Part shown: piece by piece, positions 48,179-64,000 of the stretch | Layout: each line of letters begins with the position of its first letter | Position numbering within the stretch: the first letter of the stretch is position 1 | DNA from: Rhodococcus oryzae | Lineage (GTDB): Bacteria > Actinomycetota > Actinomycetes > Mycobacteriales > Mycobacteriaceae | Length of the DNA stretch: 64,000 nucleotides | NCBI RefSeq assembly: GCF_005049235.1 | Contig: NZ_SUMD01000001.1 | Coordinates: forward strand, 496,001-560,000 | Direction: 5' to 3' | Position numbers and translations under genes: made by a program | The notes under the pieces: generated by a model | Told to the model about the DNA's origin: nothing | The model's input: only the letters and a program-made list of their open reading frames with translations | Database searches by the model: none

Positions 48179-48959
48179 CTACCGGTCCCGGTTCCCGCCG
48201 GTGTGCTCCTTCAGGACGGGTCCGACGACATTCAGTGCGGCAGGCGACGTCATTCCCCAGTGGGTGCTGGCGATGCGATGGTTGCGGACATCGCCACTGA
48301 CGTACGACTGCCAGCCCGTGGCCGCAAACCGCCCCGTCGGGTCGTCCTCGGCCGCGGTGAAGAACAGCAGATCGCCCTCGAACACTCCCGGCCGGTACGA
48401 CGCGGTGAGGCCCGCATTGTGCTGGGCAGCGGCGAGCAGGCGCCCGACGACCTCGGCGGCCTCCTCCTCGCTCTGCCCGGTCAGCTGGCCGAACATGGCA
48501 ACCGCTTGGGGCAGGGTGACGTCCGCGACCAGCTGATCACCGACTCCGTCCATTCCCATGCCGCTGAGGACCTCGGCCATCGTCACCGCGCCGTTCGGCG
48601 AGGTCGGCAGGGTCTCCGCAGTGAAGCTGTCGAGCATCGCCAACAGTTCCACCGCCTCGCCCTGTTCCTGCAGTTGCACCGCGATCGCATGGCTGATCGT
48701 GCCACCGAGGGACCACCCGAGCAGGTGATACGGGCCAGACGGCTGCACCCGACGGATCTCGCGGAGGTAGAGCTCGGCGACGGCCTCGATCGAACCGGGC
48801 AGCTCACCGTCGCCCTGCGCCGCCGGGGTCTGCAGCCCGTAGATCGGACGGTCCGCATCGATGTGCTGGGCCATTCCCACGTAGCACCACGCCAGCCCGA
48901 CGATCGGGTGGACACAGAACACCGGCGGCTTCGACCCCGCCGCGCGGATCGGGAACAGC
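48179..48959 (-). other. NRPS type I thioesterase domain
   Basis: Alpha/beta-hydrolase domain opening [16 protein letters not shown], nucleophile elbow GWSLGG (Ser codon 48710-48712), acidic residue in AMLDSF and His in ASTHWGM. It releases the chain by hydrolysis or cyclisation. Confidence 0.9.
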
Positions 48960-51900
48960 ATGTCGAAGGCCTGCCCGACGACGTCGTCGGCGCCATGGTC
49001 GATCTGCCGGGCCAGCGCCTCCGGGGTGGCTTCGGAGAACAGCCACGGCAGCTGGACCACGGTCTCGAGTTCGGTCCGCAGCCGACCGACCACCCGCATG
49101 CCGATCAGCGAATTGCCACCGAGCTCGAAGAAGTTGTCGTCCAACCCCACTCGCTCCACACCGAGCAGCTCCGCGAACACCGCCGCGACCGCCTGCTCCG
49201 TGGCGGACACGGGGGCCCGGTACTCGCGTGCCGCAATCTCCGGAACCGGCAGCGCCCGGCGCTCCAGCTTGCCGTTCGCGCTGAGCGGGAACTCGTCGAG
49301 CACCATGATCGTCTCCGGGATCATGTACGACGGGAGTGCCGTGGACATACCCCGGCGAAGTGCCGCGGTGTCGATCTCGCCCTCGCCGACCACATAGCCG
49401 ATCAGCTGCTGGCCCGAGGCCCCCGAATGCACGACGACCACCGCCGCCCGCACCGACGGGTCTGCCACCAGCGCGGCCTCGATCTCGCCGAGTTCGATCC
49501 GCAGTCCGCGCAGCTTCACCTGGAAGTCGGTGCGGCCGAGGAACTCCAGCTCGCCGCCGGAGTTCCACCGGACCAGGTCGCCGGTTCGGTACAGGCGCTC
49601 ACCGGGACCTCCACACGGATCGGCGACGAACCGTTCCGCCGTCAGGTCCGCCCGGTCGTGATAGCCGCGGGCCAGCTGCGCGCCTGCCAGGTAGAGCTCA
49701 CCCGGTACGCCAACCGGTACCGGCCTCAGCCGTGAGTCGAGCACATGCGCCCTGGTGTTCCACACCCCGCGACCGATGGGCACCACCGCACCGACGTCGG
49801 GCCCGATCCGGTGCGCAGTCGAGGTCACGGTGACCTCGGTGGGCCCGTAGGTGTTGTCGAGCACGGCGATGGACCGGGCCGCAAAGCGACGAGCCAGTTC
49901 GGCAGGGAGTTCCTCACCACCGGCGAGGACGTACCGAAGCGACGCAGGCAGCTGCAGCTGCGGATCGGCCAGGAAGACGTCGAGCATCGACGGCACGAAC
50001 TCCATGATCGTGACCGACCGTTCCTCGGCGACGGCCACCAGGTACTCGGGGTCCCGATGTCCGCCCGGCTTCGCGATCACCGTGCGGGCGCCCACCTGCA
50101 GGGGCATGAACAGCTCCCACACCGACACGTCGAAGGTGACGGGGGCCTTCTGGAGCACGGTGTCGGACGGACCAAGGGGGTACTGGCCCTGCATCCAGGC
50201 GATCTGATTCACCACCGAACCGTGTGTGACAGTCACACCCTTCGGCCGGCCGGTGGACCCCGACGTGAACATCGCGTACGCGACGTTGGCCGGCCGCAAC
50301 GGCCGGAGACGATCCGCATCCGTCAACGCGGTGTCGGCGAAGCCGGACAGGTCGAGCCTGTCGATCTCCACCACGTCGACCGAGGCCGGCAGGTCACCGG
50401 CGTCCTGCGATCTCGACAGCACCACAACCGGATTCGCGGTCGCCACGACGTACTCGGTGCGGTCGTCCGGATGCTCCGGATCGATGGGCAGGTAGCCGCC
50501 GCCGGCCTTGAGGATGGCGTACATGGCCACCATCAGGTCGACCGAGCGATACATGCCGAGCCCGACCAGCGTCTCGGGCCCGACACCGATCGAGACCAGG
50601 TGGCGCGCCAGCCTGTTCGCCTCTCGGTCGAACTCCCGGTAGGTCAGCTCCTGCTCACCGAAGAGCAGCGCAGTCGCATCGGGCGTGCGTTCGACCTGTG
50701 CCTCGAAGGCATCGACGAGCGTGAGTGCGGGTACGACGACATCGGTCTCGTTCCAGCGCTCCATCTCGGAACGTTCCGTGTCGCTGCGCAGTTCGATCGC
50801 GTCGACAGTCAGCGTTGCGTCCTTGGTGACCGCCTCGAGGATCGCGGTGAACTTCTCCGTGAAGCCGACCACCGTCGACTCGTCGAAGATGTCACGCGCG
50901 TAGTTGAACACCCCCCGGATCCCGGTGCGTCGCGCCTCCTGGTCGAACTCGGTCGACAGCGTCAACTGAAGGTCCAGCTTCGCCCCGTCGGGTACCGCGT
51001 CGATCGGGGCAACCGTCAGCCCAGGCAGCGTGACCTCCGCTCGGGCGAAGTTCTGCACCACGAGCAGCACCTGGAACAGCGCCGAGTAGGCGGTCGACCG
51101 CCTCGGGTTGAGCACCTCGATCAACTGCTCGACCTGGGTGTCAGCGTGGGCGAAGCCGTCGATGTCGTTCGCGCGGACCTCGTCGAGGAAGTCCGTGAAC
51201 GCGGTCGCGGCCTCGACCCGGTTGCGCAGTACCAACGTGTTGCCGAACATGCCGATCAGGTCGTCGAGGGCCTCCTCACCTCGGCCGGCGACCTGCACTC
51301 CGATCACGATGTCGTCGCTGCCGGAGAGCCTCGACAACAGCACCGCGAGTGCAGCGTGGGCCACCATGAAGAAGGTCGAGTTGTGTTCCCTGGCCAGACG
51401 GTCGATCCGATCCGCGAGATCCGCGGACAGCACGAAGTCGACGTAGCCGCCGCGGTTCGACGCGACCGCGGGGCGCGGCCGGTCGGTCGGGAGCTCCAAC
51501 AGGTCGGGAGCCCCGTCGAGCTGCTTTGTCCAGTAGCCGATCTGCTTGGCGGACAAGCTGTTCGGATCGTCCTGATCGCCGAGCAATGCTCGCTGCCACA
51601 ATGCATAGTCCGCGTACTGCACCGCCAGTGGCGCCCAGCCGGGCTCGAGGCCCATGCGACGCGCCTCGTAGGCGACGAGTATGTCCCTCGACATGGGTGC
51701 CATGGACCCACCGTCGCTGGAGATGTGGTGCAGGACGATGGCGAGCACGAACTCGTCCTCGTCGAGCTGGAACAGGCCGGCCCGCAATGGGACCGCCGCG
51801 GCGACGTCGAACCCGCCGCCGACGATCCCGATCAGCCGAGACCACATCTGGTCCTCGTCGATGCGCTCCGGCTCGAGCTGCGGCACCACGTCGGCAGCGG

Positions 51901-63900: not shown

Positions 63901-64000
63901 TGTCGGTGGACTCGCTCAACCGGGCGAGCAGCACCGCCAACGCCGCGTGCAGCACCATGAACGGCGTGGCGTTGGCGTGCCGCGCGATCTCCCGGACGCC
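48179..64000 (-). CDS. Giant non-ribosomal peptide synthetase (3' part)
   Basis: 5273 residues are visible and the reading is open to the right edge, so the start is outside the window. Counting residue 1 as the codon at 64000, the order is: C-terminal part of a C domain; A1; T1 (phosphopantetheine Ser764); C2; A2; T2 (Ser1809); C3; A3; T3 (Ser2862); C4; A4; T4 (Ser3907); C5; A5; T5 (Ser4964); thioesterase (Ser5097). Every complete C domain has HHxxxDG and every T domain has GGNSL. No epimerase, methyltransferase or reductase domain is seen. The 3' neighbours are housekeeping genes; partner genes, including any MbtH gene, would lie beyond the edge. Product unknown. Confidence 0.97.
48960..52119 (-). 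other. NRPS module 5 (C5-A5-T5)
   Basis: C5 has HHISSDG followed by GS rather than FS (second His, residue 4092). A5 has [18 protein letters not shown] and [10 protein letters not shown]; pocket residues by eye D-V-W-E-L-G-T-V-T-K. A5 belongs to a different lineage from A1, A2 and A4. T5 serine codon at 49109-49111. Confidence 0.82.
52120..55259 (-). other. NRPS module 4 (C4-A4-T4)
   Basis: C4 has HHISSDG (second His, residue 3047). A4 has [11 protein letters not shown] and [10 protein letters not shown]; the pocket residues equal those of module 2. The distance from the preceding T serine is 1045 residues, identical to module 2. T4 serine codon at 52280-52282. Confidence 0.85.
55260..58419 (-). 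other. NRPS module 3 (C3-A3-T3) with atypical A domain
   Basis: C3 has HHIAADG (second His, residue 1994). A3 differs from the other A domains: its A3 loop reads [15 protein letters not shown] instead of TSGSTGxPKGVVV, and A4 reads FDLTQKN. Pocket residues by eye D-L-K-N-F-G-S-D-V-K, with an acidic residue at the 330 position. T3 serine codon at 55415-55417. Confidence 0.8.
58420..61589 (-). other. NRPS module 2 (C2-A2-T2)
   Basis: C2 has HHISADG (second His, residue 949). A2 has [11 protein letters not shown] and [10 protein letters not shown]; pocket residues by eye D-A-F-M-G-G-G-I-V-K, the same as in module 4. T2 serine codon at 58574-58576. Long stretches of DNA resemble module 4 closely. 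Confidence 0.85.
61590..64000 (-). other. NRPS module 1 (partial C, A1, T1)
   Basis: The C domain is entered after its HHxxxDG motif, which is beyond the window. A1 carries [11 protein letters not shown] (about 62823-62855) and [10 protein letters not shown]. By eye the pocket residues read D-A-L-F-V-G-A-V-V-K, suggesting a bulky hydrophobic or aromatic residue; this is a weak reading. T1 serine codon at 61709-61711. Confidence 0.8.

Follow-up and report, generated by a model that had tools for sequence, protein, structure and literature searches.

Between maf and sseA in Rhodococcus oryzae lies a single complete gene that probably encodes a functional lipopeptide synthetase; its sequence indicates with good confidence that it belongs to one lineage and that its alleles have since recombined. 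The DNA analyzed, henceforth referred to as the window, is the whole stretch of 64,000 nucleotides at G000:C1:496001-560000, taken from a draft genome of 5.37 Mb in 31 contigs in which contig C1 measures 760 kb. The first-pass annotation of this DNA had described a large nonribosomal peptide synthetase (NRPS) cut by the window edge, and this was confirmed. The minus-strand frame is uninterrupted over 5,273 codons and open at the edge, C1 extends 200 kb beyond that edge, and the assembly contains the whole gene, at G000:C1:544179-568490. The full gene has 8,103 codons, contains no N and begins with a GTG start at C1:568490. The sequence GAGAGG, 8 bases 5' of the start, is plausibly the ribosome site. 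GC content by codon position is 73/48/89%, which marks the frame as a real gene.

The NRPS is a type I enzyme on one polypeptide with intact core motifs, and its domains are ordered Cs-A1-T1-E, six C-A-T modules and TE. The GG[ND]S serine is kept in all seven T domains and the C-terminal lysine motif in all seven A domains, while the C-domain motifs read HHxxxDG or HHxxxDA. The order read earlier from the window alone proved accurate, comprising the later part of C3, A3-T3, the four C-A-T modules 4–7 and the TE, and the further modules predicted upstream were found beyond the edge as the starter C domain, module 1 with its E domain, module 2 and the start of C3. Positions of the features in the window are collected in Table 1.

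Table 1 Features of the NRPS locus within the 64,000-nucleotide window.
Feature	Position	Strand	Remarks
NRPS gene, 3' two thirds (aa 2831-8103 of 8103)	48179..64000	-	continues to G000:C1:568490
Later part of C3, A3 (code DALFVGAVVK) and T3	61583..64000	-	
Module 4, C-A-T, code DAFMGGGIVK	58448..61582	-	borders approximate
Module 5, C-A-T, code DLKNFGSDVK, predicted homoserine	55289..58447	-	borders approximate; assignment from excerpts of PMC7524897 and PMC12283262
Module 6, C-A-T, code DAFMGGGIVK; paralogous to the relatives' module 7 (absent here)	52154..55288	-	
Probable module-7 deletion junction, T6 to start of next C domain	52090..52300	-	approximate
Module 7 (ortholog of the relatives' module 8), C-A-T, code DVWELGTVTK	48983..52153	-	
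Type I thioesterase; GWSLG, LDS and STHWG motifs	48182..48982	-	
maf, left border of insertion	47449..48090	+	
accD5 (carboxyltransferase), conserved flank	45507..47147	+	

The starter C domain has as its closest solved structures RzmA-Cs (7C1H, 7C1K and others; PMC7804268, excerpt), EntF and the CDA synthetase. Matches of this domain to the MxcG and EntF models were obtained as well, with cut-offs that apply to whole proteins and not to single domains. Despite the structural likeness of their starter C domains, RzmA (rhizomide) and the CDA synthetase presumably differ from this NRPS in producers, modules and products. The domain following T1 scored 90.6 bits with TIGR01720 against a cut-off of 74.2, and its best structure matches were tyrocidine, gramicidin and PvdL chains, which we take to contain E domains. 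The best identity of C2 to any non-orthologous C domain is 28.6–30.3%, as compared with 53–77% for C3 to C7 here. This outlier status fits what would be expected of a DCL-type C domain located after an E domain, the comparison having covered the C domains of this genome and its relatives. Nearest to the TE were the structures of EntF and 7crn, the latter labelled non-ribosomal peptide synthetase 4 and presumably the skyllamycin TE.

Pocket codes of the seven A domains were read at positions that we take to follow GrsA numbering, and the check on these positions was an exact match to published homoserine (Hse) codes. A1 reads DAFIVGSIVK and A2 DLKNVGSDVK; the remaining codes are given in Table 1, those of A4 and A6 being identical. 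The homoserine pattern DLKN(V/F)GSDVK fits both A2 and A5, as DLKNFGSDVK is a described homoserine code (PMC7524897, excerpt) and DLKNVGSDVK is listed for Hse/Hsl-activating domains, with Ser/Dha frequent alongside (PMC12283262, excerpt). Modules 2 and 5 are thus predicted to add homoserine. None of the five codes in the window had been considered assignable with confidence in the first-pass annotation, a view corrected by module 5, whose code is the published one; the same is true of A2 beyond the window. For A1, A3, A4, A6 and A7, the literature search gave no usable published match. Two relatives carry the code DVWHFSLVDK, which closely resembles DVWHLSLVDK and DVWHMSLVDK, both of them serine codes (PMC12283262, excerpt).

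We infer from this domain order that an active enzyme very probably builds a fatty-acid-capped peptide of seven residues. The starter C domain would join a fatty acyl group to residue 1, with the acyl group coming from outside the adjoining genes and probably from acyl-CoA, and the E domain would turn residue 1 into the D form. The six C-A-T modules would then add residues 2–7, with homoserine at positions 2 and 5, and the TE would release the N-acyl-heptapeptide, possibly as a lactone formed via a homoserine hydroxyl.

The locus is arranged as accD5, maf, the NRPS on the opposite strand, sseA (rhodanese), a papA-like C-domain gene and accA3. The gene between accD5 and maf is presumably accE5, and the small frame before papA is taken to be SufE-like. 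It had been supposed that the NRPS occupies the place of sseA. In fact sseA is present at C1:568952-569845, 461 bp past the NRPS start, and the NRPS sits between maf and sseA. Two of the six genus genomes (G002 and G004) have an empty site, with maf and sseA adjacent at spacings of about 120 and 190 bp, and orthologs of the NRPS occupy the same site in R. maanshanensis NBRC 100610 (G001), R. spelaei C9-5 (G003) and R. tukisamuensis NBRC 100609 (G005). The orthologs are 86–90% identical (best segment) over the N-terminal 697 aa. A named scan of 11 loci returned the three orthologs at 90, 89 and 86%, followed by a next best of 67%. In an even sample of 401 family genomes taken from a larger group, the starter domain was matched in 94 (E up to 1e-145) but reached at least 85% identity in 4, own genome counted, the next value being 69%.

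The gain in one lineage suggested earlier for the conserved accD5-accE5-maf block is in keeping with these data, as orthologs were found solely in R. maanshanensis, R. spelaei and R. tukisamuensis. Two small flanking-protein trees place the four NRPS holders together with G002 and G004 outside, and a single acquisition of the NRPS at the maf-sseA site by one small clade of Rhodococcus is favored. Gain plus loss is the less favored history, although support for the holder clade in the two trees is just 56 and 58%. The notion that the insertion is a large cluster was rejected, the NRPS being a lone gene between maf and sseA. The papA-like gene was not counted as part of the insert because it is also present in both NRPS-less genomes and had no match in the fetched R. 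spelaei stretch. It encodes a stand-alone condensation-fold protein (L006:11356-12774, plus strand, between sseA and accA3) that evolves fast, with 92% identity to the sister species and 61–64% to three others.

The adjoining genes examined were accD5 and maf, and sseA, the papA-like gene, accA3 and four further genes. No MbtH, acyl ligase, transporter or regulator gene was found among them. Extension of the sequence to the right of the window therefore provided the expected start of the gene but not the MbtH, transport and regulatory genes that had been anticipated just beyond it, where sseA, the papA-like gene and accA3 come next. Two MbtH genes were found in trans, on contigs C29 and C13, and may serve the NRPS. 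A siderophore as the product is very unlikely. Siderophores are the products of the few rhodococcal NRPS clusters described so far (PMC5550956, excerpt), and the MxcG and EntF model matches noted above, with their whole-protein cut-offs, point the same way, but neither chelator-biosynthesis nor ferric-uptake genes, nor MbtH, were found among the adjoining genes examined, and two of the pocket codes are those of homoserine. An acylated heptapeptide is the preferred reading.

The interval between maf and sseA was also surveyed in 151 genomes, with a maf match in 148 and an sseA match in 149; best sseA rows were available for 136 and the gap was measurable in 135. It was 3 kb or longer in 52 of these 135 genomes, and four of the 52 represent this NRPS. 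The interval is a variable slot across genera, measuring below 600 bp in 38 of 135 genomes and 15–50 kb in 12. A family-wide role of the gap as an NRPS site was unsupported: 15 of the 48 other long gaps were fetched (G093 compared minus its last 3 kb, G119 as 19.5 kb only), and no NRPS was seen in them except for a weak 19% match in G093.

The three orthologs share with the R. oryzae gene the maf-sseA site, the Cs-A-T-E start and the TE but differ in having eight modules, in frames of 9,159, 9,188 and 9,208 aa, as opposed to seven here. Modules 1–6 of this genome pair with modules 1–6 of the relatives, and module 7 pairs with their module 8, the exceptions being module 4-5 of R. spelaei and C8 of R. 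tukisamuensis, which are changed in those genomes. The relatives' C7 domains cluster in a clade to which this genome contributes no member, and the C domain after the junction groups with C8 of two relatives and not with C7. Module 7 of R. maanshanensis has its best match here in module 6, at 79%. The absence of module 7 is best explained by a deletion, the junction of which is in frame between T6 and the next C domain. The lost module is a paralog of module 6, the relatives' modules 6 and 7 being 77–83% identical, which is what recombination between tandem modules would be expected to produce. The R. oryzae allele is not outermost, being nearest to R. maanshanensis in some modules and to R. 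tukisamuensis in others, which argues for loss here and not gain in the others and thus for an inferred direction of 8 to 7 modules.

The seven-module state is known from one draft assembly of 31 contigs, and it was considered whether the strain truly has eight modules, one of two similar tandem copies having been skipped by the assembler. The similarity of the relatives' modules 6 and 7 is compatible with such an artefact, as are exact internal repeats that reach 95 bp in one relative and 106 bp in another. In the R. oryzae gene, by contrast, no exact repeat exceeds 49 bp, and the gene has no N. Since module 7 of R. maanshanensis matches nothing in this genome above module 6, there is no stray contig carrying it; the in-frame junction and the grouping of the following C domain with C8 count against the artefact as well. 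Given the C7 clade without a member here, the best match to module 6 and the 49 bp repeat, assembly collapse is considered quite unlikely, and a deletion in the R. oryzae lineage is retained as the explanation.

Other alleles differ in their A cores. In module 2 of R. tukisamuensis, identity in 60-aa windows falls to 25–61% across the A core between stretches of 73–93%, and the code is that of serine, not homoserine. This species appears to have taken a serine-type A core in place of the homoserine core, and its C8 is also different. R. spelaei keeps C4 (75–82%) but has a homoserine-type A4 that is nearest to the A5 of the others (83%), followed by a Ser module, so the order encoded there is Hse-Ser, compared with X-Hse in the other alleles. 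A-core recombination of this sort is known (PMC9205934, excerpt).

Divergence along the locus is mosaic. At 4-fold sites, identity to the sister species R. maanshanensis was 86–93% in accD5, maf, sseA and accA3 and 79% in papA, as against 62–77% across eight NRPS segments. Modules 4–6 are closer to R. tukisamuensis (73–77%) than to R. maanshanensis (62–68%), whereas modules 1 and 3 are closer to R. maanshanensis (77 and 75%) than to R. tukisamuensis (71 and 63%). These patterns indicate a probable exchange of NRPS alleles between Rhodococcus species. Fast evolution in place without allele exchange is an unlikely account of the low identity between the sister species. Replacement in A cores could be under selection, and the adjacent papA is likewise low, but all eight NRPS segments fall below the four flanking genes, and modules 4–6 resemble R. 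tukisamuensis, the more distant species, more than they do the sister, the reverse being true of modules 1 and 3. Exchange is thus the preferred reading, and it would not be confined to the NRPS, given the likewise high identity of accA3 to R. tukisamuensis (87%). The flanking genes vary too, as seen in accA3 (87% compared with 92.5% to R. maanshanensis) and in papA.

Following the gain of the NRPS, the later changes would comprise loss of module 7 in R. oryzae, the serine core in R. tukisamuensis and the changed module 4-5 stretch in R. spelaei. A broader proposal is advanced tentatively, at somewhat less than even confidence: the maf-sseA NRPS may be a chemotype locus whose alleles move between Rhodococcus species through homologous recombination and are reshaped by the deletion of whole modules and by A-core swaps that keep a side-chain hydroxyl (Hse/Ser), so that the peptides of sister species would belong to one new lipopeptide family but differ in ring or chain size.

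The NRPS is most likely a lineage-specific orphan acyl-heptapeptide synthetase of a known enzyme type. The product had been called unknown in the first-pass annotation, and the orphan status agrees with this as far as seen, because a partial literature search showed no product of the maf-sseA NRPS and no description of the R. maanshanensis, R. spelaei or R. tukisamuensis orthologs. Among the known systems compared are the humimycin synthetases (IupU of R. equi and an NRPS of R. erythropolis), which make an acyl-heptapeptide antibiotic acting against a lipid II flippase. In favor of a humimycin-type synthetase, the present enzyme belongs to a Rhodococcus and has both a starter C domain and seven modules, and C-starter humimycin NRPSs together with a family of the same architecture have been reported (PMC5550956, excerpt). 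Their clusters, unlike this locus, hold amidohydrolase, N-acyltransferase and MbtH genes (PMC5550956, excerpt), none of which was found beside this gene, and the relatives of this NRPS have eight modules. A humimycin-type synthetase is accordingly regarded as highly improbable, the comparison covering the published description of the humimycin clusters, and a distinct orphan synthetase is preferred. The laxaphycin/scytocyclamide synthetase shares the homoserine code DLKNFGSDVK (PMC7524897, excerpt) but is cyanobacterial, includes a PKS module and has another architecture. In a set of 616 genomes, 86.5% of families were limited to one clade (PMC11433410, excerpt, a study that mentions R. spelaei once), and the active compound of a strain close to R. 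maanshanensis was assigned to a PKS cluster (PMC6310278, excerpt).

Rhodococci commonly carry orphan lipopeptide NRPSs, and one more is therefore unsurprising by itself. The value of this locus lies in a series of four alleles at a fixed site, with an in-frame change from eight to seven modules best read as a loss, an apparent natural Hse-to-Ser A-domain swap and mapped break regions. What makes the case stand out is an unusually clean series, formed in nature, of modules lost and swapped. The series could be used to test which NRPS recombinations give working enzymes, and it may lead to a new family of homoserine-containing lipopeptides.

Further NRPS genes were observed in these genomes. In R. 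oryzae, four or more additional NRPS frames measure about 8,800–9,000 aa (C26:342302, C26:397886, C1:34281 and C7:51056), a large number for a genome of 5.4 Mb, and R. maanshanensis has a second related NRPS (G001:C25:59514-60944, 7,317 aa frame) with a starter domain of 69% identity. Elsewhere in the window, positions 10001-12000 show an AT skew of 0.26, well above that of the adjacent segments.
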